Source: Natronobacterium haloterrestre (lineage in GTDB: Archaea; Halobacteriota; Halobacteria; Halobacteriales; Natrialbaceae). Taken from it: 64,000 bases of DNA. Under the pieces are notes generated by a model, which saw nothing but the letters and a program-made list of their open reading frames with translations, searched no databases and had not been told where the DNA came from. This document shows, piece after piece, positions 85 to 61,167 of this stretch; within the stretch, counting starts at the first letter, position 1; every line of letters begins with the position of its first letter. The stretch covers positions 1 to 64,000 of the forward strand of contig NZ_FOKW01000014.1 of NCBI RefSeq assembly GCF_900112205.1, given 5' to 3'. The position numbers and the translations under genes are program-made.

Positions 85-669
85 TCAACAAAGCACCTCG
101 ACGAGGTCCTCAATCTGCTGTTCGTATTCTGGCACTGTTTCCCACTCGTAGAACTGGTCGTAATACTCGAAGATCTCGAAGACGCCGAAGGTCTGCATCC
201 AGCTGTACTGCTCTTTCTCGCGCTCGGGTGGGTAGGTTCGCTTCAGGATATGGGTTTTGTCGATATACGACCGCGATTCGATCAGGAGTCCGTGTTCGAT
301 GAGTGCGCCGCCTTGGTCGTGTTCGCAGATACCGAGGATGTGGTGTGAGTCGTCGGCGATGAGCTTGAATTTGAGAATCGGGTGAAGGACGAGATCGGTA
401 TCGGGGAGGAAATCATCCATCCTGTAGGCGACAGCATCGTCGCCCGTCTCTCGGTTAATATGGTACTTGAGCTGGTTCACGCGATCGACGTCGCTCTCAG
501 CGAAACTCCCTAAAATGAAAAATCGATTATCGGCCTCTGCGGCGATATCCGCCCAGTCGGCTCGAAAGTGATTGAGACCCTCGTACTCCTCCGGCGTTAA
601 CGACCTGTAGTGGTGCCGTTGAGCTCGGGCCTCGAGGTCGCTCTCTGAGGAGCCGTCCGGCATTACCAT
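85..669 (-). CDS. Hypothetical protein of a repeated divergent pair (possible nucleosidase-like fold)
   Basis: A 194-residue acidic protein with no family name I can give. Residues 49-56 (RFFILGSF) look like a first strand plus loop. Residues 113-125 (an ICEHDQGG stretch followed by a conserved Glu) look like the GG..E motif of TIR-like or deoxyribosyltransferase-like folds; that fold call is inference. The protein is related to the one at 20218-21033: both have FILGS[FY], a GG-x(3-4)-E block, a Y-[IF]-D-K-[ST] block and a YSW-start C-terminal segment. Both are divergently paired with a winged-helix gene. A TATA-like stretch (TTTTAATT, minus strand, about 686-695) lies about 20 bases upstream, fitting a leaderless transcript. 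Confidence 0.75.
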   Translation of the reverse strand: MVMPDGSSESDLEARAQRHHYRSLTPEEYEGLNHFRADWADIAAEADNRFFILGSFAESDVDRVNQLKYHINRETGDDAVAYRMDDFLPDTDLVLHPILKFKLIADDSHHILGICEHDQGGALIEHGLLIESRSYIDKTHILKRTYPPEREKEQYSWMQTFGVFEIFEYYDQFYEWETVPEYEQQIEDLVEVLC

Positions 670-927
670 CTCATTCGCACGCCCGAATTAAAACTCTTTC
701 GACCACAGCGGTCTACACCAATGTGGTTAACGCCGAAGCATTTATAGCGCCGGCGACTATATACTAGCGTGAACACAAGCAACACAACCAGCACCGATCG
801 ATACCGGTCGGATAACCTGTCTCAGACCGGTACTTCGCCGCTCCCATCCTCTGTCAGGGACGGGAGTACGACACCACAGCGATAGCTACAGCAGATACCA
901 AATCGACTGTAGCTGTCCCTCAAAACC
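670..927. promoter_or_regulatory. Divergent intergenic promoter region
   Basis: These 258 bases separate the two divergent genes. A TATA-like TTTATAG near 741 and TATATAC near 758 face the winged-helix gene, and a TTTTAATT faces the leftward gene. The winged-helix protein may regulate both directions; that is inference from the arrangement. Confidence 0.45.
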
Positions 928-2040
928 ATGGCCCACAACACGACGCATCGGGATCAGCCCGATACGACCGATGCAATCGACAGTACGGTTGAAAACCAGC
1001 GACAGCGCCTGAACGTTGTTACGCAAGAGACCCGGTTTGTCCTGATTCAGAATATTCTCTCCCATCCGCAGCAGCTTCCCACGCTCAAAGAGCTCGACTA
1101 CGTGAATCCGAGCAAAAGCAAGAGCACCATCCGCGAACATCTCGAGGTGCTGATCGAGCATGGGATCGTGGCGGAGCGGACGCTTCCGAAGGACCAACGT
1201 AAGCGCGATTTGCCGTGGCGCTTCTACGGTCTCACCGATGTCGGTCGCGACCTATTGGAGGAGGTGGGACTGCTTGGGGCTGAGGGTACGTTGCAGGATA
1301 TGTTCGAGATGTTGGAAACGACGGATAAGATCGAAAAATACGCGCAGGCCCCACGCCCGGGGGATGAGAGTGTGGATGAGGAACTGACCGGTAGCAATGC
1401 GCTTGCTGCCTACATTCGAGACCAGAAAGCGAACACTCACAGCGTCGGTGACCAGGTTTCTGTAGCTACTGCTCTGCATGAGGACGGGATCGGGCCTGAC
1501 CACGAGGGTCTGACTCGAAACGAAATCGCGGAACAGCTGGCATTCGAGTATTCGTCACGAACGGTGCTGAACCATCTTGTTGATCTCGACATCCTCGAAG
1601 AGTTCCAGCCACCTGGTCCGTCGACGTACGTAATCAGCGAACGACGGGATCAGATAATCAACGGTGAGGTTGAGGAGACGCTTGATGTGGAAATCGAGCG
1701 TCTCATCGACCATATGGTGGCCCATATGGACGATCGGATTGTGCCTATGGATGACGGACAGCCTGGGGATCGGGTCGTTATCGCGGACGGCGCTGGTCGA
1801 ACGATCCGATCAATCTTAGCTGAAGAATTTGAGATCCCACAGGAAGATGTTGAGTCCTATCTCCGTGAAGGGGATCGACTAGCAAAACTGAACCAAGCTG
1901 TTGACGCGATTGAAGAGAGTGAAGACATCGATAAGGGAGATGGTTATGGGCGAGTCATCTTCCGAAACCCTGCCTACCGCTATCGACTCTCCGAGTTTGG
2001 AATGGCTCTAGCTGAGAACGGTCTTAGTGTGGAAGGATAG
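928..2040 (+). CDS. Double winged-helix transcriptional regulator
   Basis: A 370-residue soluble regulator. Residues about 28-125 form a winged-helix domain of the ArsR/MarR type (a QETRFVLIQNILSHPQQLP start, recognition helix SKSTIREHLEVL, wing KRDLPWRFYGLT), ending in a TDKIEKYAQAPRPG tail. A second winged helix lies at about 195-245 (RNEIAEQLAFEYSSRTVLNHL). The first domain is closely related to the 162-residue protein at 21134-21622, which shares the QxTR, RDLP-x-[RQ]FYG and T[DE]KIE...APRP motifs. Each sits divergently beside a homologous partner. This copy has roughly doubled in length by adding the second domain. It probably controls itself and the partner gene. Confidence 0.8.
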   Translation: MAHNTTHRDQPDTTDAIDSTVENQRQRLNVVTQETRFVLIQNILSHPQQLPTLKELDYVNPSKSKSTIREHLEVLIEHGIVAERTLPKDQRKRDLPWRFYGLTDVGRDLLEEVGLLGAEGTLQDMFEMLETTDKIEKYAQAPRPGDESVDEELTGSNALAAYIRDQKANTHSVGDQVSVATALHEDGIGPDHEGLTRNEIAEQLAFEYSSRTVLNHLVDLDILEEFQPPGPSTYVISERRDQIINGEVEETLDVEIERLIDHMVAHMDDRIVPMDDGQPGDRVVIADGAGRTIRSILAEEFEIPQEDVESYLREGDRLAKLNQAVDAIEESEDIDKGDGYGRVIFRNPAYRYRLSEFGMALAENGLSVEG

Positions 2041-2141: not shown

Positions 2142-3224
2142 CTACCTGTACTTGGACTTGTCCACGAGTCGAGCGTATCTCATATCATCCCGAGCAATCT
2201 CCCCAGCATCATCGCCCGTCATCTGTATTGGGGACGTCGTACCGGGGTTCACATCTAACATCGACCGCCAGATCTCTGCCGTGATTTCGTGATATTCCAT
2301 TAGCTGGACGACTTGCGTCAGCTGACGATCGTTGATATCGGGCGGGAGGATAATGCGCTCGATCAGGTCTTCTATATCGACTTTTAGATTGAAGCCTGGA
2401 TCCGCATCGAGTTCCATATCGATATCCCCCGTTTCACTCACCTCCAGATCCAGATCGTTGAGCTCCTGTCTCGCTAGGAGGCGCAACTCTTTCTCATCCC
2501 CGAAGGCGATACGCTTGTGGAATACCCGGTCGACGCCATTTGCTGCGAAACGCTCGTCGCTTCCCTTGTATTCTTTGTAGTTGACTTTCCCGATCAGTAC
2601 CTCCCGATCAGCCCGGTCCGTTGCTGACGAAAGCGTATCCAGGGTTGTCTCGACGGCAACTCCATTTCCATCGTTGATGTATGCATTCCAGAAGACAGCC
2701 GACTCCTCTCCACCGTACCGCCAACAGGATACGAAAGACTGCTTCCGAAGGATTTCGTCTTCTGCGGCGTACACCTGCCGCAGATCATACGGCGGTGGAT
2801 CATCTTCAAATTCGAGGTACTCCCACTGATCAAACCGATGTCGGACCGTTTTATCGGAGACTCCCCCTTCGTAGTCATCGTCGAAATTGTCGAGTCGGCT
2901 GAACCAAATCCCGTCCTGTAGTAACGAAACGAATTTCGAGAGATCAAGGTATTTACGAACCAGAATAGGTTCCTCATCGGATCCCTCGGGCAGCTCCGGC
3001 GAATCGCCCAAATCTGGGGCTGTAGTTGTGTTCTCTACGGTTTGTTCGAGTCGGGAAGCGACGAAATCGCGACGAGTTTTCGAACGGATTTCATCAGAAA
3101 GAAACTCTCGAATTTCCTCTTCGTCGTGATCCTCTTGGAGAATCTCCCGTAGTGCGCTATCGTGTTCACCTGTCGCCTCAATGACTGCATCGAGGTAATC
3201 CATATCCACAATCTTTCTGACCAT
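2142..3224 (-). CDS. DUF2971-family protein
   Basis: A 360-residue protein when started at the ATG at 3224. The open frame runs further upstream to 3440, but that part lies opposite a plausible coding remnant, so the shorter start is chosen. Residues about 90-250 match the DUF2971 pattern: a KYLDLSKFVSLL start, WFSRLDNFDDDYEGG, then SFVSCWRYGGEESAVFW and GVAVETT. DUF2971 proteins are of unknown biochemical role and often occur in accessory or defence regions. No signal peptide or membrane segment is visible. It stands alone between debris and a winged-helix gene. Confidence 0.7.
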   Translation of the reverse strand: MVRKIVDMDYLDAVIEATGEHDSALREILQEDHDEEEIREFLSDEIRSKTRRDFVASRLEQTVENTTTAPDLGDSPELPEGSDEEPILVRKYLDLSKFVSLLQDGIWFSRLDNFDDDYEGGVSDKTVRHRFDQWEYLEFEDDPPPYDLRQVYAAEDEILRKQSFVSCWRYGGEESAVFWNAYINDGNGVAVETTLDTLSSATDRADREVLIGKVNYKEYKGSDERFAANGVDRVFHKRIAFGDEKELRLLARQELNDLDLEVSETGDIDMELDADPGFNLKVDIEDLIERIILPPDINDRQLTQVVQLMEYHEITAEIWRSMLDVNPGTTSPIQMTGDDAGEIARDDMRYARLVDKSKYR

Positions 3225-3302
3225 CACAAAATAACTGGGCTCCGAATCTCGTTTGCGAATATCTCGTTTCTCTGACTGGCTATAGCATTCCTCGAGAACC
3301 CG

Positions 3303-3479
3303 ATACGCGACGCATTCACGGCGCTGGTCGCCCACGACGGCTTCTGGGCGACCGAGCCCCACCGCAGTATCGACTACTACGTCGACGATATCGTGTTCGG
3401 CAATCAGACGCCCGAGGAGGTTGCCACCGCAGTCGAGCAAGCACTCGAGGACATGGACTTGCTCGAGGATGTGTTATAG
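3303..3479 (+). pseudogene. C-terminal gene remnant
   Basis: An open rightward frame of about 58 residues has no start codon and ends with TAG at 3479. It reads as a natural acidic C-terminus (FWATEPHRSIDYYVDDIVFG, then EEVATAVEQALEDMDLLEDVL). It looks like the tail of a truncated protein whose 5' part was lost. Parent family not recognised. Confidence 0.4.
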
Positions 3480-5894: not shown

Positions 5895-6842
5895 ATGCCC
5901 AATCATTCGACGCCGAACCGGTTGACAGTGAATCAGCCAATCCGAGATGCTGATCGTAATCGACGAACGCTCGCTGACCAAGCCGATTCGACCGCAGACG
6001 GGATGTTTCTCCCCTCTCTCGAGGACAGGGTCACGTTGCTCGACATCGAGGGCGACCGCGGCGTTCCGATCCTACAATCGCTCGTGCTCGATCATCTCCT
6101 CCTGCACGACGGGCCCGCCTTCTGGGTCGACGCAAATGGTCACGCGACGACGACGACACTCGCTCAGATCGCGCCAAGTCAACGGTTGCTCAACCGAATC
6201 CACGTCGCACGCGGATTTACCGCCTACCAGCACTACGGCGCCGTCTGTGATCTCCCGTCAGCGGCGAATAAGGTAATCCAGATGTCCACCGCCGACGCCC
6301 GGGCGGCCGGTCGAGGGGCGCCAGGTCGTGACGAGGACACGTCGACCCACACACCCGCCCTCATCGTCGCGCCGGCCGCCGACGCCCAGTACCGCGCCGA
6401 CGATACCCTCGGCGAGACTCACGCGAAAACCCTCCAGGCCCGAACTCTCGCCCGGTTGGCGACCTACGCCGATGGGTACGACATCCCGGTGCTCGTTACG
6501 CGAAACGAACGAAACGAATTCACCGAATCAGTCGCGACGGTCGCCAACCACCACCTGGAGTGCGAGCAGACCCGGATGGGGGCACGGGTCGTCGGCGAGG
6601 ACTTCGAGACGCTCGTCTATCCCGTCGACGACGGCGCGTACTACCAGACGACGTTCGCGTACTGGCGGCAGTTGCTCGCGGCGCGCGCCACAGAGGTCGG
6701 CGTGGAACCGACAACTCCGGCGCCGTCGACGCCGACCCCAGAGGGTGTCGGGACGGGCGTCACAGTAGACGGTGAGACAGTGTCGGCCACCGCGGACCCC
6801 TTACTCGATGCGTGGACCGCGACCGGGACAGGAGGTCGATAG
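5895..6842 (+). CDS. RecA/RadB-like protein with a degenerate P-loop, replication-region associated
   Basis: A 315-residue protein started at the ATG at 5895; the frame opens earlier but the upstream part includes the inverted repeat. Residues about 45-70 (VTLLDIEGDRGVPILQSL) occupy the place of a Walker A loop but lack GK[ST]. Later strands (ALIVAPAADAQYR, DIPVLVTRNE) fit a RecA-fold core, and the C-terminal 60 residues are Pro/Thr-rich. I recall similar proteins beside PolB genes in haloarchaea, where they are described as RecA-superfamily paralogues. If so it would bind DNA or a polymerase without hydrolysing ATP. It overlaps nothing and sits 2 bases before the next gene, so they are probably co-transcribed. 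Confidence 0.55.
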   Translation: MPNHSTPNRLTVNQPIRDADRNRRTLADQADSTADGMFLPSLEDRVTLLDIEGDRGVPILQSLVLDHLLLHDGPAFWVDANGHATTTTLAQIAPSQRLLNRIHVARGFTAYQHYGAVCDLPSAANKVIQMSTADARAAGRGAPGRDEDTSTHTPALIVAPAADAQYRADDTLGETHAKTLQARTLARLATYADGYDIPVLVTRNERNEFTESVATVANHHLECEQTRMGARVVGEDFETLVYPVDDGAYYQTTFAYWRQLLAARATEVGVEPTTPAPSTPTPEGVGTGVTVDGETVSATADPLLDAWTATGTGGR

Positions 6843-6844
6843 CG

Positions 6845-7165
6845 ATGGGGCGCACAAACCCGACGTACCGGGATGCGCTCCGGGCCATCGAAGAGCGCTG
6901 GGCGGAGTTCCGCCGGGCACTGCGGCGTCGCGACCAGCCGCGATTCGACCGACTGTTCGAGTATGCCCGCGAGCACGCCGACGCGAGTGGGCTGTTGAAC
7001 CACCAGAACCCGCTACTGCCGGCGCTGCTCAGCATCGATCTCGAACAGGAAACCCGACTCGATGAACACGAAGACCGCCTCGCTGAACTCGAAAACGCAC
7101 TCAATGAGAGGAACAATCGACAGCAACTCTCCGAGACGGGTTCCACAGAGGATGGGTTGCACTGA
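6845..7165 (+). CDS. Small conserved haloarchaeal protein
   Basis: A 106-residue protein; the ATG at 6845 follows the previous stop by 2 bases. The sequence has a helical region (TYRDALRAIEERWAEFRRAL and RRDQPRFDRLFEYARE) and a C-terminal coiled coil (RLDEHEDRLAELENAL). I recall this type next to PolB/RadB-like genes in haloarchaeal replicons, which suggests a polymerase accessory role. It forms an operon with the preceding gene. Confidence 0.65.
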   Translation: MGRTNPTYRDALRAIEERWAEFRRALRRRDQPRFDRLFEYAREHADASGLLNHQNPLLPALLSIDLEQETRLDEHEDRLAELENALNERNNRQQLSETGSTEDGLH

Positions 7166-7197
7166 TGGTTTTTATGACGGGATACTAGCCCCTTCGT

Positions 7198-7575
7198 ATG
7201 GCAACGGATCGCTTCCAGAGAATCAACGATTTGGAATCGGGTGATCGAATTCGGATCCACCTTACCGGGGACGGTCCGGTTGAGGCTGGTGGTGTAGCGT
7301 TTCCGAATCCGTGGGAGACCTCCGTCGGAAGTGTACATGAAGAGAGAAAGGATCCCCGGAAGGGAGATGAGGTCCGACATATCGAATTTCATCGGACAGT
7401 GCGTCTCGATGCACCTGACGAGATCGTGCCGCCTGATCACGTCGTGTTGAAAACTGTACATCGGATGGACCAGGAGAACACGCTTCAGCTGACATTCAAA
7501 CAGCTGATCGAAGATAGTCCTGGTCACTATACTCTCCATGCCTTGGGATTCGAGGATCTCGAGGTTCTCGAGTGA
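7198..7575 (+). CDS. Hypothetical haloarchaeal protein
   Basis: A 125-residue mostly beta protein of unknown role. It starts MATDRFQRINDLESGDRIRI and has a C-terminal HALGFEDLEVLE. A TATA-like stretch (GGTTTTTATG) lies about 25 bases upstream. It lies 33 bases after the previous gene and before inverted-repeat copy 2. Confidence 0.6.
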   Translation: MATDRFQRINDLESGDRIRIHLTGDGPVEAGGVAFPNPWETSVGSVHEERKDPRKGDEVRHIEFHRTVRLDAPDEIVPPDHVVLKTVHRMDQENTLQLTFKQLIEDSPGHYTLHALGFEDLEVLE

Positions 7576-7617
7576 ATCCGTATCGAATATAGCACCTCAG
7601 TTCCGTGATCAGTAGAC

Positions 7618-7658
7618 TTAACCAACATCTCGTAGGCTGCGTTGGTTTTGTTGGTTAA
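7618..7658. repeat. 41-bp inverted repeat family, copy 2
   Basis: TTAACCAACA at 7618-7627 and TGTTGGTTAA at 7649-7658. It lies between the 7198 gene and the PolB remnant. The centre also contains an extra GTTGG half-motif. Confidence 0.85.
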
Positions 7659-7847
7659 GATAGCGGGGAAGAGGAACCAGCGCCCTGGAAATGTTTACGG
7701 AAGATGGTTGGAAAGAGCCAAATTCGCATTCCAAGCCTTTCGCAGCCGTGTCACACAGATTCCCTGAACTTCGGAAGCGACACACTGTCAATTATCGGGT
7801 GAGCGCACGTTGGCGTGCCTATACTGGAGGGTGACAAATAGAAAATC

Positions 7848-9386
7848 TCGCTGAGTCGGTGGCCGGACGTCGACTACCAGCAGCTCGCGAGCCGGTCGAC
7901 GTACTCGAGCTACGGCCGCGTCGGCCACTCACCGGCGCGGTACAACGTGCCCGGCCGGGCGATCATCGACGAGTCGAACACGTTCTTCTACGGAGAGACG
8001 AACCTCGACGGCGTCCTCGACCTCGTGTCGCGCTCGAAAAAGCCCGTCCAGGAGCTCGCGTGGGCGTCGATCGGGAACGTGCTCACGGCGATCCAGATCT
8101 GTGAGGCCCACGACCGCGGCGTCCTCGTTCCGTGGAACTCCTGGCGCCACGAGTTTTACAAGCCGATGGGGACGCTCCACGACGCCGACCGTGGCGGCTT
8201 CATCTTCGCGCCGGAGGTCGGCTTCCACGAGAACGTCCACGAACTCGACTTCTCCTCGTTGTACCCGAACATCATCTGTACCCGGAACGTCTCGCCGGAC
8301 GTCATCCGGTGTAGCTGCCACAGCGACCGCGAGGATGTCCCCGGTCTCGGGTACTCGATCTGCGACGACCAGGGCAACCTCGTCGACGTGCTGCAGCCGA
8401 TCATCGACGCTCGCGACGAGATCAAGGCGGCCATCCGTCGCGAGAAGGAACGGGACAACCCCGATGAGGACCGGCTGGCGGAACTCGAGGGGCGTTCGGG
8501 AGCGCTGAAGTGGATCCTCGTCGCCTGCTTCGGCTATCAAGGGTTCAGCAACGCGAAATTCGGCCGCATCGAGTGCCACGAAGCGATCAACGCGTTTGCT
8601 CGCGAGATCCTACTAACGGCGAAACAACGGCTGGAAGCTGGCGGCTGGCGCGTCGTCCACGGCATCGTCGACTCCATCTGGGTGACGCCGGACCCCGACC
8701 TCGACGACGAGTACCGCGAGGACCTCGAGACGCTCACGACGGAGATCACGGAACGTGTTGAGATTCGGCTCGAACACGAAGCCCACTACGACTGGGTGGC
8801 GTTTGTGCCGCAGCGCGAGAGCGACGCTGGTGCGTTGACGAAATACTTCGGGAAGGTCGCCGGCCACGACGAATTCAAGATACGTGGTATCGAAGCTCGG
8901 CAGCGCTCGACCCCATCGTTCATCGAGGACGTCCAGCGGGATTGTCTCGAACGGCTCGACGCGACTCGATCCCCGGATGCCGTACTTGACTGTCTTCAGG
9001 ACGCGATCAGTCGCCTCCACGCTGGGACGGTGCCGGTCAAGCAGCTCGTCGAACGGAATCGTGTCTCCAAGCCGCTGGAAGGGTACACGCAGAACACACA
9101 GAACGTGGCGGCGCTAAAGCGGGCTCGCGACCAGGACCTCGCCATCCACCCGGGACAGGACATCGAGTACGTGGTCGTCGACGACGAGAAGAGTTCGCGA
9201 GAGCGGGTCGCGTTGGCTCACGAAGAGACGGAGTCGTACGATGCGTCGTACTACGAGACGCAACTCGTCAGAGCTGTCGAGAGTGTGCTGGCACCGCTTG
9301 GCTGGGATCGGACGGAGATTCAACGCGAGATCGCGGAAACTCGGGAAACGGACCTGGCCGCCCTCACCGAGATTGAGAGATGTTAA
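7848..9386 (+). pseudogene. PolB2-like B-family DNA polymerase lacking its N-terminal half
   Basis: The open frame (first start GTG at 7947, coding trace from about 7848 just after an in-frame TAG) encodes the palm and thumb of a B-family polymerase. Counting from 7947, motif A is DFSSLYPNII (residues 101-110), motif B is about LKWILVACFGYQGFSNAKFG (187-206), and motif C is HGIVDS (238-243). Motif C has lost the first Asp of the usual YGDTDS, as expected for archaeal PolB2 proteins, long regarded as inactivated. The 3'-5' exonuclease domain is missing. Either it is a 5' deletion or a polymerase core expressed alone. The stop codon lies inside inverted-repeat copy 3. Confidence 0.7.
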
Positions 9387-10585: not shown

Positions 10586-11863
10586 ATGGCTGAGGAACCG
10601 TCCCAACTCTCTGACTTCGACGGCCGCTACGAGGATCCCGCTGACGATCCCCTCTTCGACTTTGATGAAGACGACCCCGACCGAGCCAACATTTTCGCTC
10701 GCAAGGAGCTGCTGAAGGTTGGCCACGTCCCTGAAAGCGGACGTATCGTCGGCCGAGATGGCGAGATCAAGGCCGTGGCTGCTGAACTCAGGCCAATCGT
10801 TCGTGGCGATCCGCCCAACAACGTGATTATTTACGGCAAAACGGGAACCGGGAAGTCACTCGTTGCCCGTCACGTCACTGAACGAGCTCGGCGAGCCGCG
10901 GAATCGAACGGTGTGTCCGTGGGGACGGTCTACGTCGACTGCGCGCAGCATAACACACAGACACGCGTCGCGAGGACGGTGACACGTTCACTCAACGAGA
11001 CGGACGAGACTGACTTCGATATTCCACGCGCAGGGATTGGCAGCGGTGAATACTACGACTATCTCTGGGAGATTCTGGATACTGCCTACGAGTCAGTCAT
11101 TATCATTCTCGACGAGGTGGACCGACTCGATGACGATGATATTCTTATGCAGCTCTCACGGGCTCGCGAATCGGGGAAAGCTGATTGCCACCTGGGCGTC
11201 ATCGCAGTCAGCAACAAGATCGAGTATCGCGACCAGCTGAACGAGCGCGTCAAGTCCAGTCTTCGCGAGGAAGAGTTCGTGTTCCAACCCTACGACGCGA
11301 ATCAGCTGCGCGAGATAATGAAGCACCGACGGGACGCGTTCCACGATGGTGTTCTCTCGGACGATGTAATTCCGCTGACGGCGGCATTAGCCGCTCAGGA
11401 ACACGGTGACGCCAGAAAGGCAATCGAGATTCTTCGTCATGCTGGCGAGCTTGCCGAGCGAGAAAACGTCGAGACGGTCGTTGAGGAACACGTTCGCGAT
11501 GCCCAGGAGTGGGCTGAAATCGATCGGTTCGAGGAGCTTCTCCGTGGATCGACGACACAGGTTAAATTCATCCTCTATTCTCTCGCGCTGCTCACCGAAG
11601 AGAATCCGAACGAGGATGGATTCTCTACCAACCGGATTTACGAACGGTATCAAGCGACGACAGAGAAGGCTGATGCGAAGACTCTCAGCGAGCACCGCGT
11701 CTACGAGCTGTTGAAAGAGCAGGCGTTCCTCGGTGTCGTTGAATCAACTCGGACCGGGGGTGGCCGGGGTGAAGGCAGTTATCTCGAGCACCGGCTGGTT
11801 CAGGATACCGGTATCGTGCTGAAATCTGTCCTCCGGGACAGCCGGTTGGAAGACTTGGGCTAG
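10586..11863 (+). CDS. orc1: Orc1/Cdc6 replication initiator
   Basis: A 425-residue AAA+ initiator. Walker A is GKTGTGKS (residues 84-91), Walker B is IIILDEVDRL (about 174-183), and sensor 1 follows in LGVIAVSNKIEYR. The C-terminal winged helix (about 330-425) contains the GGGRGEGSYLEH wing, which would contact the ORB boxes. It starts at the second of two adjacent start codons (TTG-ATG); the ATG is chosen. It lies directly downstream of the ORB cluster, the standard origin arrangement, and so should start replication of this replicon. All ATPase residues look intact. Confidence 0.92.
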   Translation: MAEEPSQLSDFDGRYEDPADDPLFDFDEDDPDRANIFARKELLKVGHVPESGRIVGRDGEIKAVAAELRPIVRGDPPNNVIIYGKTGTGKSLVARHVTERARRAAESNGVSVGTVYVDCAQHNTQTRVARTVTRSLNETDETDFDIPRAGIGSGEYYDYLWEILDTAYESVIIILDEVDRLDDDDILMQLSRARESGKADCHLGVIAVSNKIEYRDQLNERVKSSLREEEFVFQPYDANQLREIMKHRRDAFHDGVLSDDVIPLTAALAAQEHGDARKAIEILRHAGELAERENVETVVEEHVRDAQEWAEIDRFEELLRGSTTQVKFILYSLALLTEENPNEDGFSTNRIYERYQATTEKADAKTLSEHRVYELLKEQAFLGVVESTRTGGGRGEGSYLEHRLVQDTGIVLKSVLRDSRLEDLG

Positions 11864-13522: not shown

Positions 13523-13581
13523 ATTATCATCTCCGTTGAGGCGCGTCTCACGGGCCAGATGTTCGACAACTGTACTCCGAG

Positions 13582-13654
13582 TGCGCGAGGGACGATTCGA
13601 ACGTCCGTCTCGGTCGTGGCACGACCGCGTGTTTCCGAACTCCACCACTCGCGC
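13582..13654 (-). tRNA. tRNA-Gly(GCC)
   Basis: Acceptor GCGCGAG/CTCGCGC, anticodon stem CGGTC/GACCG with loop GTGCCAC, T-arm GGACG-TTCGAAT-CGTCC, discriminator A. Last tRNA of the leftward array, just downstream of the Ro60 gene. Confidence 0.88.
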
Positions 13655-13674
13655 ATCCTCAAATCCGAACTGGG

Positions 13675-15204
13675 CTAGGTCGGCTCGAACGCCTCGATCT
13701 CATCGATGATCTGTTTCGGATTCTCGGCGTGTTCGATGAACGAGAGGACGTTCTCCGACCATCCCGAGATGTTGTAGACGTTCTCGTAGCCTTCTGGCGT
13801 CACCAGGTCGCCGTAGGCCGCGAGATCGACGAGATACAGCGCGGTGTCCGCAGACACCTCGTCTCGATACGCATCGAACGCGTCTTTGACCGTCTGGGAA
13901 TCGCGGGCCGTGAACGGCGTGTTGTCCCAGATCTGCATATCGGTGAAGACGACGATGCGTTCAACAGCATCCCCTCGGTCGTGGAGGTGCTTGATCGCCC
14001 TCCAGCCGTTCGTCGAGTTTCCGACATCCTCGTCGATCGCCAACACCGCCGCTTGGCGCTGCAGGACTGGCGTGTCGACGTGCATCGGAACGGTCTGGAA
14101 GTCGTCGCCGAACCCGCCGACGTCAGCACCCTGGTTGGCCAGGATCGCACCGAACAACGCACCGATCTCCTTCAGTCGGAGCGTGCTGTTCGCGGACAGC
14201 GGCTGATCCATCGATCCCGACAGGTCGACCGCGACAAAGGTATCGCCGAATCCGCCAGGCACCGTCTCGACCGCGACATCAATTGCGTCTTCGAGCCACT
14301 GCTCGACCGTCGGTGCCTGGACATCCGCGTCTTGCAGCGCGGTGTAGGCCTGGTAGTACCGGAACGGGTACAGCGGCGCGTGGCGGACGGCCTCCAGGTC
14401 GAGGTGATCCACGACGGTGTCCTCCGGAACGCCGGCTTCGAGCATATTCCGGAGGTTCCGGATCGACGCGAAGATGGGCAGCGTGTACTCGTCGTCCTCG
14501 ATGAGCAGTTCCCAGGCGGCTTGGGTGTTGCCGCGCTCGGAGATAACCGTCTCCCACGTGTTCGGCGCCGGCAACGGGTCGACGTCGGGATAGTCGTCGA
14601 GGCCACCACGCATGAACCGCTCGAAGAGCGCTTCCTGCTCGGCGTCGATGGGCGTGGGGTGGACGCGGTTGAAGACGTCGTGCAGCGTCACCTCGCGCCG
14701 CGACAGCTCGTACTTGCCCAGCGTGTAGGCGTCGGCCATTTCAACCAGCGCGTCCTCGATCCCGCGTCGAAGCGGCCACGGCGCAGTCCCGCCGAACAGC
14801 TGATCGTGGACCGCGAGCGCGGTGGCCGTCTCGTCCATCCGCTGGATGATCGCCGGCGCCCATTCGCGGATGAGCGACTCGGGGGAGTCGTCCTTGAATC
14901 GGTCGTCGTTGGCTGCCAGTACGAGTAGCACTTGTGGGATGTCCCGCAAGTAGAGCTCCTGGCGCGCATAGGCCGCGAGCTTCAGGACGAACTCCGGGTC
15001 CTCGTTTGCGGCGGCATCGAACTGGCGAACGACAGCAGCGAGCTGTTCGTCATCGGTCTCGTAGAACGAGCCCTCCAGCAGCTGGTTGATCGTGCGCTTG
15101 TACAGTGCGAGTCGGGGGTCGGCAGGCTCGAACGCTTCGCCACCCTCGTAGTTGGTGGTCCGCGTTGCCTCCGCGACCGTTTGCTTTGGCGTGTTGAATT
15201 CCAT
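13675..15204 (-). CDS. Ro60-type TROVE/VWA RNA-binding protein
   Basis: A 509-residue protein started at the ATG at 15204 (MEFNTPKQTV). Residues about 15-315 match the alpha-helical TROVE ring: FVLKLAAYARQELYLRDIP, DVFNRVHPTP, and ASIRNLRNMLEAGVPED. Residues 320-505 are a von Willebrand A domain with an intact MIDAS (DLSGSMDQ at 327-334, a Thr in STNGW, and FTDMQIWD). Ro60/Rsr proteins bind Y RNAs and misfolded RNAs on the outside of the ring, pass single-stranded RNA ends through the centre, and take part in RNA quality control. The gene lies inside a tRNA array. Three Y-RNA-like sequences lie just upstream on the same strand, and the gene is probably co-transcribed with them. No RtcB ligase is present. 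Confidence 0.9.
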   Translation of the reverse strand: MEFNTPKQTVAEATRTTNYEGGEAFEPADPRLALYKRTINQLLEGSFYETDDEQLAAVVRQFDAAANEDPEFVLKLAAYARQELYLRDIPQVLLVLAANDDRFKDDSPESLIREWAPAIIQRMDETATALAVHDQLFGGTAPWPLRRGIEDALVEMADAYTLGKYELSRREVTLHDVFNRVHPTPIDAEQEALFERFMRGGLDDYPDVDPLPAPNTWETVISERGNTQAAWELLIEDDEYTLPIFASIRNLRNMLEAGVPEDTVVDHLDLEAVRHAPLYPFRYYQAYTALQDADVQAPTVEQWLEDAIDVAVETVPGGFGDTFVAVDLSGSMDQPLSANSTLRLKEIGALFGAILANQGADVGGFGDDFQTVPMHVDTPVLQRQAAVLAIDEDVGNSTNGWRAIKHLHDRGDAVERIVVFTDMQIWDNTPFTARDSQTVKDAFDAYRDEVSADTALYLVDLAAYGDLVTPEGYENVYNISGWSENVLSFIEHAENPKQIIDEIEAFEPT

Positions 15205-15317
15205 CCTATCACCCGGAGCCGCAACAGGCGACTCCGATCGTAGCTGCCCACAAGCTCTGTGAGCAGCGAGTCTCGGGAGAGAAACTTCCCGAACCAGCCT
15301 CGCATCGCTCGGCTGGA

Positions 15318-15392
15318 CGTTCCCGGCACGATTCGAACGTGCGACACCCGGCTTCGAAGGCCGGTGCTCTGTCCTGACTGAGCTACGGGAAC
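15318..15392 (-). tRNA. tRNA-Arg(TCG)
   Basis: Acceptor GTTCCCG/CGGGAAC, D-arm with TAGCTCAG, anticodon loop CTTCGAA, T-arm GCACG-TTCGAAT-CGTGC, discriminator G. It lies between the Ro60 gene and the first Y-like RNA. Confidence 0.92.
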
Positions 15393-15395
15393 ACG

Positions 15396-15479
15396 AGTGG
15401 CCGGACAATTTCTGGAGCGAACGACGGGATTCGAACCCGTAATGTGCCATCGACGTAGCGCTCCAGATCGACGGCCACT
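15396..15479 (-). ncRNA. Y-RNA-like RNA 1 (Ro60-associated, tRNA-like)
   Basis: About 84 nt transcribed leftward. Outer stem P0 pairs AGTGGCCG with CGGCCACT. An internal loop follows with UCGA on the 5' side and AAUUGUC on the 3' side. P1 is nine perfect pairs (TCTGGAGCG/CGCTCCAGA). The head contains a canonical tRNA T-arm (ACGGG-TTCGAAT-CCCGT) but no room for D and anticodon arms. Bacterial Y RNAs have a Ro-binding stem with conserved G-N-C-G-A on one strand plus a tRNA-like head; this matches in layout. It lies 3 bases from tRNA-Arg and 190 bases upstream of the Ro60 start codon. Confidence 0.7.
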
Positions 15480-15487
15480 GGCGACAC

Positions 15488-15633
15488 GACGACCGGAAAA
15501 CTGTCGGAGCGGGACCGGTGTCGAGCGTCCTCTCGTACGCTCTTTGTCCGGGATGTTCTCGATGGGTTGTGCCACCGACAGGATTTGAACCTGCGAGTTC
15601 CTGGCGAAGCAACGCTCCGACTCGACGGTCGCC
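15488..15633 (-). ncRNA. Y-RNA-like RNA 2 (longest form)
   Basis: The same architecture as RNA 1 with different paired bases. P0 has core GACCG/CGGTC and extends with wobble pairs to about 12 bp. The internal loop is UCGA over AGUUUUC (4/7). P1 is nine pairs (GTCGGAGCG/CGCTCCGAC). The head of about 100 nt includes a T-arm (GCAGG-TTCAAAT-CCTGT), a CGGTG/CACCG pairing and a GAGCGT/ACGCTC hairpin. The segment after P1 starts TTGCTTCGCC, almost as in RNA 3. Because stems differ while pairing is kept, covariation supports the structure. Confidence 0.68.
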
Positions 15634-15634
15634 A

Positions 15635-15725
15635 CGTGCGGTCGAGCAACTGGTGGTGCGACGGGCTATGACTCCCGTTGGTGTGCTTTGCGGGCGAAGA
15701 AACGCACCACCTCGACGACCACACG
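15635..15725 (-). ncRNA. Y-RNA-like RNA 3
   Basis: P0 is CGTGTGGTCG/CGACCGCACG (ten pairs, one wobble). The internal loop is UCGA over AGUUGCU (4/7). P1 is nine pairs (GGTGGTGCG/CGCACCACC). The head has TTTCTTCGCCCG and then a T-arm-like hairpin ACGGG/CCCGT with a diverged loop. Its P0 end abuts that of RNA 2, so the two are probably cut from one precursor. Confidence 0.66.
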
Positions 15726-15728
15726 CTT

Positions 15729-15814
15729 GGGGAACGCTGACCGTGACAGCGTCACGGATCCGTGGCTGCCCGCTATGTCAGACACGGAAAAACGCTGTCA
15801 GGGCCAGCCTCCCC
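15729..15814 (-). ncRNA. Possible fourth structured RNA of the same cluster
   Basis: Fills the gap between RNA 3 and tRNA-Glu. The ends pair (GGGGA/TCCCC), a further helix TGACAGCG/CGCTGTCA is perfect, and GCG-TTTTTCCG follows the 5' strand as in RNAs 2 and 3 (GCG-TTGCTTCG, GCG-TTTCTTCG). A CACGG/CCGTG hairpin takes the place of the T-arm. The UCGA internal loop is missing, so membership in the family is uncertain. Confidence 0.4.
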
Positions 15815-15817
15815 GAC

Positions 15818-15893
15818 TGCTCCCGAGGGGAATCGAACCCCTGGCCTCCAGTTTGAAAAACTGGCGTCTCTCGCCAACGGAGACTCCGGGAGC
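15818..15893 (-). tRNA. tRNA-Glu(TTC)
   Basis: Acceptor GCTCCCG/CGGGAGC, anticodon stem CCAGT/ACTGG with loop TTTTCAA, T-loop TTCGATT, discriminator A. Confidence 0.9.
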
Positions 15894-15935
15894 GCTGGAG
15901 AGTAAATCAAGCACCGAGGTGTGGGCACGCACGGG

Positions 15936-16340
15936 TCACTGCAGCCGTTCGAAGCCCTCGAGTTGCCCGTGCGTGAACGTTACTTGATACGTGACGAGTG
16001 TCTCGAGACCCTCGAAGGAGTGTTTGAGCTTGAAGCGGCCGTGGTAGTCGTCTCGTTCGATCCAGCCGTCGTGGACTCGGTTCCGACTGCCGGCCATGTA
16101 GCGAAAATCGTCCTCGTCGACGTCGTCACGGCTCGCGTATGGCCGGTCTTCCGGCGGGACCGCTTCGGTGTGCCACTCCTCTTCGAGGAGCCGACCGTCC
16201 GCCGTAATCCGAAATGTGGTCATGATCGGTCGATCGATGCCTTTCGTCTGCCAGTCGACATCCTCGGCAGGAGTAATCCCTTCGGGGTACTCTGGCAGGT
16301 GGACGTCGTCGTAGAGTTCGACTGTATCGAATAGTCCCAT
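15936..16340 (-). CDS. Virus-type hypothetical protein within the tRNA array
   Basis: A 134-residue protein started at the ATG at 16340 (MGLFDTVELYDD). The pattern MGLFDT, then DWQTKGIDRPIMTTFRITADG, resembles small proteins I have seen in phage genomes with a QTK-x-(L/I)D motif. Its role is unknown. Its place among tRNA genes supports a viral or provirus origin for the array. Confidence 0.6.
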   Translation of the reverse strand: MGLFDTVELYDDVHLPEYPEGITPAEDVDWQTKGIDRPIMTTFRITADGRLLEEEWHTEAVPPEDRPYASRDDVDEDDFRYMAGSRNRVHDGWIERDDYHGRFKLKHSFEGLETLVTYQVTFTHGQLEGFERLQ

Positions 16341-16352
16341 TGTTGTCCTCCA

Positions 16353-16423
16353 TTGCGGGACCAGGAGTCGAACCTGGGCCTCGGGGATATGAGCCCCGTG
16401 GACTGCCATTATCCTATCCCGCA
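16353..16423 (-). tRNA. tRNA with CAT anticodon (Met or Ile2)
   Basis: Acceptor TGCGGGA/TCCCGCA, anticodon stem CGGGG/CCCCG with loop CTCATAT, T-arm CCAGG-TTCGACT-CCTGG, discriminator A. Elongator Met and lysidine/agmatidine-type Ile2 cannot be separated by anticodon alone. Confidence 0.88.
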
Positions 16424-16526
16424 GCACACAATTCGGAACTCACTCATGGGCATCTCTCAGTTCTCCACAGCTGTCCGTCCCTCAGTCTCGTCGGCTGGAA
16501 GTGAGAGGTCTCGGACTGTTGGAGAA

Positions 16527-16599
16527 TGCTCCAGCCCGGATTCGAACCGGGGGCTCGGCCGTGAGAGGGCCGTGAGTTTGGCCGCTACTCCACTGGAGC
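16527..16599 (-). tRNA. tRNA-Glu(CTC)
   Basis: Acceptor GCTCCAG/CTGGAGC, anticodon stem CGGCC/GGCCG with loop CTCTCAC, T-arm CCCGG-TTCGAAT-CCGGG, discriminator A. Confidence 0.9.
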
Positions 16600-16633
16600 G
16601 GGTTGGCCTCGTCTGGAACGGGTCGTCGGCCAG

Positions 16634-16756
16634 TGGGACGGGCAGGATTCGAACCTGCGTGTTCTCGTTACAAGTGAGATGAAGGAACTCTCTCGCACCG
16701 GGTCTCCGGTGAAAACTCGGTGAGTGTGTGTGAATGCCAGGCTCTTCCACCGTCCC
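16634..16756 (-). tRNA. tRNA-Thr(TGT) with a ~51-nt insertion
   Basis: Acceptor GGGACGG/CCGTCCC and T-arm GCAGG-TTCGAAT-CCTGC are normal. The anticodon arm TCTCA-CTTGTAA-CGAGA gives TGT, with one A-C mismatch at the loop end. The gene is 123 nt, about 51 too long. The excess lies between the D-arm (GAA...TTC) and the anticodon stem, flanked by a TTCA direct repeat, and holds a CACCGG/CCGGTG hairpin. This is not the usual archaeal intron position after base 37. Confidence 0.7.
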
Positions 16757-16760
16757 GCAG

Positions 16761-16832
16761 TCTCCCCGGCACGACTCGAACGTGCGTCTCCTCCTCTACA
16801 GGGAGGTATCGTAGCCGCTAGACCACAGGGAG
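16761..16832 (-). tRNA. tRNA-Tyr(GTA)
   Basis: Acceptor CTCCCTG/CGGGGAG with one G-U pair, anticodon stem CCTCC/GGAGG with loop CTGTAGA, T-arm GCACG-TTCGAGT-CGTGC, discriminator A. Only 4 bases separate it from tRNA-Thr and from tRNA-Leu. Confidence 0.88.
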
Positions 16833-16836
16833 AAAA

Positions 16837-16919
16837 TGTCGCCGCGAGGATTCGAACCTCGGAAGGACCTACGCCAGCGGGTCTGAGCCGCTTCTCGTTG
16901 ACCACTTGAGTACGGCGAC
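16837..16919 (-). tRNA. tRNA-Leu(CAG)
   Basis: Type II tRNA with a long variable arm. Acceptor GTCGCCG/CGGCGAC, anticodon stem AGCGG/CCGCT with loop CTCAGAC, T-arm CGAGG-TTCGAAT-CCTCG, discriminator A. Confidence 0.92.
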
Positions 16920-16961
16920 GTAACGGTGAAGCGAGAATTGTCTCCCGGCACGATGGCCGGA

Positions 16962-17043
16962 TGCCGCCACCAGGATTCGAACCTGGGAAGGACTAACCAC
17001 ACGGGTCTCGACCGTGTCCGTTCGACCACTCTGGCATGGCGGC
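16962..17043 (-). tRNA. tRNA-Leu(GAG) lacking U33
   Basis: Acceptor GCCGCCA/TGGCGGC, anticodon stem CACGG/CCGTG, long variable arm, T-arm CCAGG-TTCGAAT-CCTGG. The anticodon loop reads TCGAGAC: position 33 is C, not the near-universal U, and 32-33 look swapped. It may decode poorly or have another use. Confidence 0.82.
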
Positions 17044-17168
17044 GCAATTCGAGAATCGCCGGCGACTCTGCGAATCACTTCGGCACGCAGCGGCGGGAGA
17101 GCGATGTCAACTGCCCCGCGCACGGTGGCGCGGGGCTTGTCAGTGAACTCGGCCTCTGCCGACCATAG

Positions 17169-18386: not shown

Positions 18387-18450
18387 GGTTTTCAATAGAT
18401 ATATGAGGTACTTAGTAATCGGTGGTTTGTGGCAGTGGGTGTTGGTTTCC

Positions 18451-18474
18451 TCCCCGCCCACCGGTGGGCGGGGA
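18451..18474. repeat. 24-bp perfect palindrome, IS left-end hairpin
   Basis: Two 12-base arms (TCCCCGCCCACC and its inverse) with no spacer. It lies 65 bases upstream of the tnpB start. Confidence 0.8.
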
Positions 18475-18566
18475 ACCCGCCTTGCTATCTAATTTGAACA
18501 CTCGTGTCCTTGCGGACGCTGCGGTTCCAACGCAATCCCTTGACCAAGCTAGGGAAACCCCGCCAA

Positions 18567-18648
18567 CGGTGAGATGGAGAGTCGAACTCCGAAGCCTCGC
18601 GGCTCTCGGTTTCACACCGAGCGCGGTCGCCTATCCGCATGTCTCACC
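18567..18648 (-). tRNA. tRNA-Ser(TGA)-like, degenerate
   Basis: Type II form with long variable arm. Acceptor GGTGAGA/TCTCACC, anticodon stem CTCGG/CCGAG, discriminator G as in Ser tRNAs. Odd points: anticodon loop TGTGAAA puts G at position 33, base 8 is C, and the T-stem has a C-A mismatch. It may be decaying or specialised. Confidence 0.75.
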
Positions 18649-18790
18649 ATCTCCGTCGGAACTTGCTCCGACAAGCCCGCCTCGCGTTTCTCACCGGGAC
18701 ACCGGAAGACGCGCATTACTCAGCTTCTGACCCTCACTACCGAGGCGAATGTGCTCATCAGCATCCAGTCACAGCAGGGATGGATGGTGG

Positions 18791-18931
18791 TCACCTCGTT
18801 CCGTGGAAGTATGCGCCGTCCTCGGTGACGCAGATTTCCACGCTTCCAATCGTGTCGATAGACGTTGTTTCACCGATCGGGACGTGACGGAACGCTTCCT
18901 CCTCGCAGGCAGGGCAGACATTCGTTGTCAT
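18791..18931 (-). CDS. Small CxxC protein between tRNA-Ser genes
   Basis: A 46-residue frame starting MTTNVCPACEEEAFRHVPIG. It has a single CPAC motif, so it might bind metal as a dimer. The start lies 3 bases before tRNA-Ser(GCT). A good-looking but short frame of unknown role. Confidence 0.45.
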   Translation of the reverse strand: MTTNVCPACEEEAFRHVPIGETTSIDTIGSVEICVTEDGAYFHGTR

Positions 18932-18933
18932 GA

Positions 18934-19020
18934 CGCCGCGACCCGGATTCGAACCGGGAGACCGATAGCAGACGGCCACGGCATAGCAGGCCGCTGGGTT
19001 CCCCAATACCCAGTCGCGGC
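18934..19020 (-). tRNA. tRNA-Ser(GCT)
   Basis: Type II tRNA. Acceptor GCCGCGA/TCGCGGC, anticodon loop CTGCTAT, long variable arm, T-arm CCCGG-TTCGAAT-CCGGG, discriminator G. Confidence 0.9.
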
Positions 19021-19023
19021 ACA

Positions 19024-19098: not shown

Positions 19099-19103
19099 CT
19101 GGA

Positions 19104-20217: not shown

Positions 20218-21033
20218 TCACCGTTCTCCCCCCTCTTCCCACTCCGGACGTGGCGTCGGGGACGGGAGTTCGTCAACCACAGTTCGGAGTTCGTCCTCTG
20301 TCGTCCACGGGAAGCACCGATCGTGGAGTTCGAATTTGCGGAACTTGTTGAGATGGACCCAACTGTACGTTGCCGGCGCTTCGCCCTCCTCTGCCCGGTC
20401 GTCGATCACACCCCAAATCTCCTGTTCGTCGATGTCGAGACCCCTCTTTTGGGCGCGGTCAACGAGTGACTCGACTTTTGATTGGACTTCATCCGCCGAC
20501 AAATCGTCTGCGAACGCAATCTCGAGGGCGGCCTGAACGACGTGCTGTGTCGAGTCAAGGTTCTCGTCAGTCACCCACGCGTAATCACGCGGGAACACGT
20601 ACGACTTGTCGAAATACGGGCGGTCATCGATCTCACCCAACTCAGGCGCCTCCCCACCACTCTCCTTCTCGAAGACACCGACGATGTAGTCGCTGTACGT
20701 CGCGAGCAACGAAAACATGATATCGAACGTATTGAGCCGGTCAGTCGGGAGTTCGAGGAGATCACCCATGATGAACGGATAGGCACCGAGCTGCTTCGTG
20801 AGTTCGTTCTGGACGGCGCGAAGTCGGCGGATATAGGGGTCGCGATAGCTTCCCAGGATGAAATACGATGTCCGCTGACTCCAGAGATACGGCAATTCAC
20901 GCTGGGTGAACCGCCAGATCTCCCGTTTCTCTGCAGGCTCAAGTTCGATGCCCCCGACGGCCTCGTGAACAACGGTCATAATCTCCCCAGCGTCCGGCGG
21001 CGGGCTTGAGTCGGTCATTAGCTGCCGATTCAA
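20218..21033 (-). CDS. Hypothetical protein of the repeated divergent pair, copy 2
   Basis: A 271-residue homologue of the protein at 85-669. Shared features: FILGSY (58-63), VGVFEKESGGEAPELGEI (118-135) with a conserved Glu at 131, YFDKSYVF (140-147), and a YSWVHLNKF-start C-terminal segment. It carries two insertions relative to copy 1, one of about 60 residues between the YFDK and YSW blocks. The GG..PELG motif recalls the catalytic Glu loop of TIR-like or nucleoside deoxyribosyltransferase-like folds (inference). It is divergent to the winged-helix gene at 21134 with a 100-base gap. Confidence 0.75.
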   Translation of the reverse strand: MNRQLMTDSSPPPDAGEIMTVVHEAVGGIELEPAEKREIWRFTQRELPYLWSQRTSYFILGSYRDPYIRRLRAVQNELTKQLGAYPFIMGDLLELPTDRLNTFDIMFSLLATYSDYIVGVFEKESGGEAPELGEIDDRPYFDKSYVFPRDYAWVTDENLDSTQHVVQAALEIAFADDLSADEVQSKVESLVDRAQKRGLDIDEQEIWGVIDDRAEEGEAPATYSWVHLNKFRKFELHDRCFPWTTEDELRTVVDELPSPTPRPEWEEGGER

Positions 21034-21078: not shown

Positions 21079-21095
21079 TTAACCAACTTGGTCAA
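21079..21095. promoter_or_regulatory. Palindromic operator-like site
   Basis: TTAACCAA and TTGGTCAA face each other around one C, in the divergent promoter. The left half matches the arm of the 41-bp repeat family, but the arms here are adjacent. It lies 39 bases upstream of the winged-helix start. Confidence 0.5.
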
Positions 21096-21133
21096 CCCTA
21101 ACTGTTATAGCGCCCTCCCTCGTACCATCACGT

Positions 21134-21622
21134 ATGAGCGAAACCGACACTGGCGCGGCCGATGCAGGGCCGTTCGCGGAACAGCAGCGGCTGTTCAAGC
21201 TGCTGTCCCAGGATACGCGCCATCTCATCATCCAGGAACTGCTGGGCCACCCCGCCCATCTGATGTCGCTCGCCGAACTCGAGTATATGACTGGGAAGAG
21301 TCAGGCGGCCATCAAAGACCAGTTGGAGACGTTGATCGACGCCGGGCTCCTCGCACGCTACACGTACGACCCAAGTGAGGGGAAACGTGATCTCCCCTCC
21401 CAGTTCTACGGATTCACTGAGCGGGGCGTCGAGGTCCTCCACGACTACAAGTATCTCCGTGGCCTTCCGGTCGCTCGTGCCCTCTACGAAAACACGCGCA
21501 AGACCGAGAAAATCGAGCGCCACGAATCGGCCCCTCGCCCGGAGCTTCCGGATGCCGTCGCGGAAGCCCTCGAGTTCGACGAGCCCGATCTCGACGCCGT
21601 CGATGGTGGCACAAACCCATAG
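21134..21622 (+). CDS. Winged-helix regulator of the repeated divergent pair, copy 2
   Basis: A 162-residue protein. Residues about 15-105 form a winged helix (QDTRHLIIQELLGHPAHL, recognition helix KSQAAIKDQLETL, wing KRDLPSQFYGFT). The tail TEKIERHESAPRPELP parallels the tail of the first domain at 928-2040. Lacking the second domain, it is less than half the length of copy 1. Probable repressor or sensor for the divergent gene. Confidence 0.8.
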   Translation: MSETDTGAADAGPFAEQQRLFKLLSQDTRHLIIQELLGHPAHLMSLAELEYMTGKSQAAIKDQLETLIDAGLLARYTYDPSEGKRDLPSQFYGFTERGVEVLHDYKYLRGLPVARALYENTRKTEKIERHESAPRPELPDAVAEALEFDEPDLDAVDGGTNP

Positions 21623-59866: not shown

Positions 59867-60289
59867 CTACTCGAAGTCGTAGCCCCATTCCCGAAGTTGA
59901 TCCGCGACATCATCGATTCGCTTGAGGCCGACAAGTAGCGCTGCCTCCCGGAGGTCAGCCTTCTTGACCGACTCGCCTAGCTCGCCCTCGACATCGGACT
60001 TGACTTGGCGCTGTCGATCGAGCGTTGTATCCTGCAAGTGTAACTGCACAGTTTTCGCGCGACCATCCGTGATACTATCGCGCTCGTAGATCCAGGGGAG
60101 GCCACTGCGGCTCGAGTCGCTCTCGTCGCGACCGTCCTGCTGCTCGATCGCGCGATCGGGCTGCGGATCGACTTCGACTGACGAGCCCATTGACTCGAGC
60201 CCGTCAACGTCGTCTTCTCCGGCTTTGTCGTCCTCGGTGCCAGCACCAAACGGATTATCGCCGCTCGCACCTTCCTTGAAGCCCGTCAC
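59867..60289 (-). CDS. Small partner protein of ParA
   Basis: A 140-residue acidic protein. A flexible N-terminus (about 1-60) precedes a C-terminal part with DGRAKTVQLHLQDTTLDRQR and LREAALLVGLKRIDDVADQL, which could be a ribbon-helix-helix-like DNA-binding unit. It overlaps the ParA stop by ATGA. By position it is the ParB-like centromere binder of the partition operon (inference). Confidence 0.65.
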   Translation of the reverse strand: MTGFKEGASGDNPFGAGTEDDKAGEDDVDGLESMGSSVEVDPQPDRAIEQQDGRDESDSSRSGLPWIYERDSITDGRAKTVQLHLQDTTLDRQRQVKSDVEGELGESVKKADLREAALLVGLKRIDDVADQLREWGYDFE

Positions 60290-61167
60290 GCCTCAATCAC
60301 CTCATCGTCTTCCAAGCTGCCTGGCTCCGGAGGATTCGGTGCCTTGAGACCGACCTGGTCCTCAAGGTAACGAGCAATCCGGTCGAATTGCGCCAACGTC
60401 TTGACTTCGTGGTCTCGGGTGCGCGCGCGATGTTTACGAACGTACTCGAAGGCCGAACACTGCTGCTTCCAGCACCCCTCCATCATTGACGTCCGGTCGC
60501 CGATCACCTCAGGTGTAGGGAGGTCGATCTCGTCGATCAACTCCTCCTGGTCGTTCGTATGCTTGAACCCGTTCGGTACCGCAGCCAGTACACCAATCTC
60601 GATGTTCAGCTGGTCACCGAAGTTCGTCGCAAGTTGCTCAAGACCCTCAACTGAGGCCCGCCCCTTCGCGGAGGGTTCGACTGGGATCACGAGGTTGCGC
60701 GTCGCGTAGATCGCGTTGTAGAGATGGTCGGACTCGGTAGCCGGCGGATCGCAAATCAATACGTCGTACTTCTCGGCGATATCGGCATCACGAAGGACGC
60801 GTTGCAGCTGGGCGTAGATGTTGTACGAATCCCCCAAGTCCTCCGCTTTCCGCTGCTCGCGCTGAAGGTGGCTCGAGAGATCAGAGAGCATGTTGTGTTC
60901 CGGGACGATATCAACACCCTCCGCCGTTCGGACGAGGTCTGCGAGCGATCCCTTTGGACTGCGGACGATATGGCGTACGATATTGTCGGCGTCACTATTG
61001 GCGCGATCGTCGTCAACGCCGAACAGTCGACTGAGGTCACCGTCCTGCGGATCCAGCGGAACGACCAGAACGTCAAGGCCGGCTCGAGCGTGTGCAACAG
61101 CTAGGTTCGCCGTCAGCGAGGACTTTCCCACGCCGCCTGCTTCGCTGTAGACCGTATACGAGAGCAT
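60286..61167 (-). CDS. parA: ParA-family partition ATPase
   Basis: A 293-residue P-loop ATPase. Deviant Walker A EAGGVGKSSLTANLA (residues about 9-23), Walker A' in LVVPLDPQDGDLS, and Walker B in DVLICDPPA. This is the ParA/Soj type that positions replicons. The signature starts with EAGGVGKS where KGGVGKT is usual. It is followed by the small partner gene with a four-base overlap and preceded by palindromic repeats at 61225-61259. Together they form the partition locus of the replicon. Confidence 0.88.
   Translation of the reverse strand: MLSYTVYSEAGGVGKSSLTANLAVAHARAGLDVLVVPLDPQDGDLSRLFGVDDDRANSDADNIVRHIVRSPKGSLADLVRTAEGVDIVPEHNMLSDLSSHLQREQRKAEDLGDSYNIYAQLQRVLRDADIAEKYDVLICDPPATESDHLYNAIYATRNLVIPVEPSAKGRASVEGLEQLATNFGDQLNIEIGVLAAVPNGFKHTNDQEELIDEIDLPTPEVIGDRTSMMEGCWKQQCSAFEYVRKHRARTRDHEVKTLAQFDRIARYLEDQVGLKAPNPPEPGSLEDDEVIEA

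Follow-up and report, generated by a model that had tools for sequence, protein, structure and literature searches.

A predicted DNPH1/NDT/TIR-fold protein and a divergent winged-helix regulator form a recurrent two-gene module in haloarchaea

Why does one stretch of haloarchaeal DNA carry the same small gene pair twice, and what might the two proteins do? The window (the whole 64,000-nucleotide stretch of Natronobacterium haloterrestre DNA that was analysed) was originally predicted to hold two copies of a divergent two-gene module, and we recovered both pairs of open reading frames (ORFs; Table 1). In each, a leftward gene encodes a protein that we call A and a rightward gene a winged-helix (wHTH) protein that we call B. 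The two A proteins (A1 and A2) are 32% identical over 98 aa (E 2e-11) and the two B proteins (B1 and B2) 38% over 132 aa (E 4e-27); a third module is found at G000:C21, in another part of the genome. The A2 ORF extends to 21033 if started at a TTG (271 aa); the ATG used in Table 1 is the likelier start. The motifs recorded earlier are present in the proteins, except that the B motif reads RDLP-x2-FYG and not RDLP-x-FYG. Both partners have indeed changed length independently, A2 by about 60 aa that its AlphaFold model shows as a helical insert, and B1 by its C-terminal extension.

Table 1. Features of the two modules and of their context in the window (coordinates in nucleotides).
Feature	Position	Strand	Basis
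A1, predicted DNPH1/NDT/TIR-fold effector, 194 aa	85..669	-	ORF, alignment, AlphaFold, fold matches
Module 1 candidate operator, palindrome ACCACAGCGGTCTACACCAATGTGGT	702..727	.	Inverted repeat, 33-58 bp upstream of A1 start
B1, winged-helix regulator, 370 aa, with C-terminal extension	928..2040	+	Pfam HTH_20, relatives
B1 C-terminal extension, about 215 aa (about aa 155-370)	1390-2040		
DNA polymerase family B gene (context)	7947..9386	+	Pfam PF00136
Orc1/Cdc6 replication initiator, between both modules (context)	10586..11863	+	Pfam Cdc6_lid, Cdc6_C
A2, predicted second effector copy, 266 aa from likely ATG	20218..21018	-	ORF, AlphaFold, fold matches
Module 2 element with CCAACTTGG and TTATAGCG, candidate operator and promoter	21080..21112	.	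Alignment of 8 loci
B2, winged-helix regulator, 162 aa, without extension	21134..21622	+	ORF, 38% identity to B1
ParA-type partition ATPase (context)	60286..61167	-	Pfam AAA_31/CbiA

The original prediction hinged on the two genes co-occurring in other genomes, and in 100 related genomes, where 119 A genes were scored as full-length, the neighbourhood check found a partner for 115 of them. In 111 the genes are divergent and in 4 co-directional, although one of the latter (G076) actually consists of two B genes flanking the remains of an A gene. Two of the remaining four lie at contig ends; the other two, first listed as lacking B, proved on inspection of their loci to be divergently paired with a wHTH gene whose sequence has diverged. 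Chance is excluded as the source of the pairing, because it is near-universal in other genomes. Across a set of 80 loci, the immediate divergent neighbour of intact A is B, mostly no more than about 160 bp away, the exceptions being contig-end loci and one degenerate lineage.

The converse does not hold. B occurs without A in about 26 places of the 100-genome set, some of them partial, and A remnants lie next to intact B, for instance on Natribaculum luteum and Salinibaculum sp. KK48 plasmids. Where B is not detectable, in one plasmid lineage (L092-L097 and L080), A is broken in 7/7 loci, with a common frameshift in six (L092-L097), a stop in L080 and a GG to GC change in the key motif in all; these seven cases amount to no more than one or two events. 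The two partners co-evolve: their distance matrices correlate with a Mantel r of 0.92, a value reached in 0 of 2000 permutations. That A needs B fits a harmful A, but would also fit an A that simply serves no purpose without B.

B is very likely a dedicated regulator of the A-B unit. B1 matches Pfam HTH_20 (30.8 bits against a curated cut-off of 27); the HTH_5 match of B2 falls under its cut-off by itself, and the winged-helix assignment comes through the identity to B1. The B1 extension also occurs as stand-alone proteins (G048:C8:8535, G079:C10:27906, G022, G035 and G054), and a B1-type extension is found alongside an A2-like partner (G040, G016).

The DNA between A and B contains conserved elements. 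The module 1 palindrome is kept in four related loci (G052, pHSR-CO, pJCM16430-01 and KK48), in an intergenic alignment from which the G048 row (drawn from the wrong side of its gene) and the N. luteum row (only partly intergenic) were left out. In the chromosomal-type subfamily, an exact dyad, TTTAC-N6-GTAAA, is present in 31/39 intergenic regions, whereas in 50 shuffled sets any dyad appeared in at most 2; kinship inflates this count, though the spacer around the dyad has diverged. Plasmid-type loci have common CGAAAC/CGAATC elements. Operator conservation is partly shared ancestry. A whole-genome near-exact search located none of the genome's three elements anywhere but at its own module, and those of modules 1 and 2 have a single site each at up to 3 mismatches. 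Since the elements are private to each module, B appears to have the A-B locus as its output. Judged on near-exact sites, this suggests three insulated circuits in the genome, whose main output would be A.

Searches with A1 and A2 (E up to 1) found no family in Pfam, NCBIfam, PHROGs or PADLOC beyond chance-like matches; a PADLOC MTase_II match of A1 spans 39 aa and PHROG matches of A2 are weak (E 0.018 and above), and we judged both to be chance. PDB sequence profiles returned chance matches alone, and a profile comparison with DNPH1 (hhalign) was not significant, so that no likeness of A to any characterised enzyme was found at the sequence level by family libraries, PDB profiles or hhalign. 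Annotated plasmid records label A a "hypothetical protein" or leave it unannotated, and a literature search, with most subscription journals outside its reach, found no paper describing the A-B family.

We therefore turn to predicted structure. AlphaFold models of A1 (72 sequences; pLDDT 82.8, pTM 0.81) and, built separately from an overlapping alignment, A2 (pLDDT 83.8, pTM 0.80) both predict a Rossmann-like alpha/beta core with a five-stranded sheet that matches solved TIR-DrHyd-SLOG members, with Z of 10-13.5 (A1) and 9.4-11.5 (A2) to DNPH1/NDT. After realignment, the top PDB match of the A1 model was 7m5h (Z 13.5), with Z up to 13.4 for DNPH1/Rcl, about 10-11 for NDTs, about 11 for TIR domains (among them SPARTA, TIR-STING and SARM1) and 11.2 for the retron-Ec86 effector. 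The A2 model ranked DNPH1 first (Z 11.5), followed by NDTs (about 8-10), TIR domains (about 8-9.6) and the retron-Ec86 effector (8.2), unrelated folds reaching about 8. Foldseek E-values were weak for both models; the fold claim therefore rests on Z, the agreement of two models and the motif described below. It is likely that A has the DNPH1/NDT/TIR fold, and by predicted fold and motif only we place it in the TIR-DrHyd-SLOG class, nearest the DrHyd/NDT branch. The original prediction required a catalytic pocket, and both models match the fold of enzymes having one.

TIR, DrHyd and SLOG domains are regarded as one class, whose active-site residues come after strand 3 (PMC9503650). In A, G113, E116, E125 and G127 lie at or beyond the end of strand 3, and LG[SN]Y (L53, G54) and a nearly invariant R63 after strand 1. 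Glu125, Glu116, Gly113, Gly127 and Asp86 (A1 numbering) are invariant in 72/72 aligned A sequences. The key Glu is E125 within GGALIEHG in A1 and lies within GGEAPELG in A2, giving the family motif GGxxxExG. The nucleophile of DNPH1 is Glu104 (PMC10603095), and the non-significant profile alignment sets E125 of A on this residue (the DNPH1 query sequence agrees with PDB entries over the folded part). Aligning DNPH1 Y24/D80/E104 with A by motif keeps the Glu; the two remaining positions carry Phe and Lys/Phe. As Asp80 and Tyr24 have no clear counterpart by this alignment, enzymatic activity of A is a prediction, and A could be a nucleotide sensor.

Comparison with known systems places the module between several of them. 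A shares with DNPH1/Rcl and NDTs the predicted fold, GxxxExG whose Glu sits in the helix that follows strand 3, and a Gly-Ser/Asn motif after strand 1, but it has added N-terminal helices, a conserved C-terminal W motif and a wHTH gene partner; we do not file it as DNPH1/NDT proper because it has no detectable sequence similarity to them. The NDT-like effector of retron-Ec86/Eco1 is reported to hydrolyse NAD+ (Carabias et al. 2024, as cited by others). A resembles it in its NDT-like fold and proposed toxic-effector logic, whereas control of A-B would be by a divergent repressor and not by msDNA; no reverse transcriptase is annotated beside an A-B module in the record stretches inspected. With TIR NADases (SARM1, SPARTA, TIR-STING, Thoeris ThsB), A shares the fold group and a single key Glu; unlike them, it keeps the GxxxExG-type motif, ranks nearer DNPH1/NDT and lacks an Argonaute- or STING-like sensor partner. 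Like type II toxin-antitoxin systems, A and B are two small adjacent genes, one of them for a predicted DNA-binding protein, with conserved elements in a common promoter region; they occur on plasmids, and intact A was not found without B. However, A and B are divergent in 111/115 paired cases and not operonic, and the toxicity of A and its neutralisation by B would be predictions; we therefore do not file them in that class.

A-type proteins occur in 62-67 and B-type proteins in 75-80 of the 100 related genomes. In the phylum set, 49/393 genomes match, every one within the window's own order, Halobacteriales, across which the family is widespread; plasmid records gave 93 matches, with haloarchaea only among the matches listed, and relatives of A or B were not found in phage and viral collections. 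Genomes carry several diverged A-B copies. In several genomes, two or three modules of different subfamilies lie together within a few to 22 kb (G043:C1:707514-729802, L066, L069, L139 and G019:C3), and module clustering is therefore recurrent.

An Orc1/Cdc6-type gene lies within 6 kb of the module in 30/80 loci by ORF clusters (19/34 plasmid-type and 11/46 chromosomal-type), backed by record annotation in several, and A1-B1 relatives reside on 35- and 41-kb plasmids that also have orc1 and parA. Many copies, like those of the window, have orc1/cdc6, PolB or ParA genes nearby. In the record stretches inspected, module neighbours are mostly replication, partition and mobile genes; defence genes (BREX PglX or type I restriction, for example) occur on some plasmids only. 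This context points to plasmid stability at least as much as to defence. The plasmid lineage with a broken A (L092-L097 and L080, at about 5900-8770) has this gene within a 6.9-kb region that is 93-95% identical across haloarchaeal genera, which suggests recent cross-genus spread of one replicon.

Several other features of the window were recorded. Adjoining B1, positions 2142-3362 resemble DUF2971 under the curated cut-off. A winged-helix gene of HVO_2833_C type followed by a DUF6036 nucleotidyltransferase gene (25121-26847) looks like a regulator-effector pair, and relatives of the former lie near A in 7/80 loci (e.g. L066:1913-2899). A ThiF-family gene is found at 54182-55855, and pHSR-CO also has a ThiF adenylyltransferase. 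On this plasmid-like contig, 13 tRNA genes cluster at 13581-19505, interrupted by a TnpB-like ORF; of the genome's 53 tRNAs, counted as above-cut-off matches or ARAGORN calls, 13 are on this contig (12 by Rfam). Phage-encoded tRNAs are able to counteract certain defence effectors (PMC11555353). We dropped a link between A2-B2 and this cluster: among 24 loci, a tRNA cluster lies beside the module only here and in G016.

What, then, is the module? We give a probability of about 0.55 to A-B being a self-repressed N-glycosidase-like effector module, with the logic of a toxin-antitoxin or abortive-infection cassette. The original prediction, an enzyme acting on nucleotides or NAD and controlled by a repressor of its own, stands in so far as the predicted fold, the invariant Glu, the obligate pairing and the private operator-like sites agree with it; the absence of sequence likeness to DNPH1 speaks against the enzyme half. 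An anti-virus module, in which a virus would disturb B or the host and A would deplete NAD or make a nucleotide signal, is an unlikely account of the pair. TIR and NDT-like effectors act in this way in bacteria, A falls in the fold group of the SPARTA, TIR-STING and retron-Ec86 effectors, TIR-DrHyd-SLOG domains are frequent in prokaryotic immunity (PMC9503650) and several diverged copies per genome would suit defence; yet A has no PADLOC family match beyond a chance-like fragment, and the neighbourhood is mostly one of replication, partition and mobility.

We consider it improbable that A is a nucleotide-binding co-regulator of B with no activity of its own, the pair being a sensor that controls other genes: although the DNPH1 Asp and Tyr are not evident in A, inactive TIR-DrHyd-SLOG members are known as sensors (PMC9503650) and the decay of A without B would be accounted for, Glu125 is invariant throughout the alignment, and near-exact copies of the B elements are confined to the A-B intergenic space, leaving B without another apparent target. 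More improbable still is that A is a routine enzyme of nucleotide salvage or pool cleaning, controlled by a local repressor. The nearest folds, DNPH1 and NDT, are metabolic enzymes, but the patchy distribution would be untypical of such a function, as would diverged copies with separate elements, an obligate regulator and a broken A where B is missing.

Under the self-repressed effector reading, each A-B unit would be a self-contained switch. B would bind its operator in the divergent promoter region and hold both A and B itself low, in what we infer to be repression. If plasmid loss, replication stress or infection lifts this repression, A would be made and would probably break the N-glycosidic bond of NAD or another nucleotide via the invariant Glu (E125 in A1), leaving the cell arrested or damaged. 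We put the harmful output of A at even odds. If A is harmful once repression is lost, plasmids and genomes would therefore keep the pair, as we propose.

More broadly, and somewhat more tentatively, the family may represent a large unrecognised archaeal group of nucleotide- or NAD-cleaving effectors, serving as plasmid addiction and/or abortive-infection cassettes under private divergent wHTH repressors, with several mutually orthogonal copies per genome. If so, a common unannotated gene family, found in roughly two-thirds of our sample of 100 related genomes, would gain a name, and an enzyme and repressor with predicted operators would be open to testing. The module would also offer a possible cause of stable haloarchaeal plasmid inheritance, and would add archaeal plasmids to the settings of NDT/TIR-fold effectors, here with neither a retron nor an Argonaute as partner.
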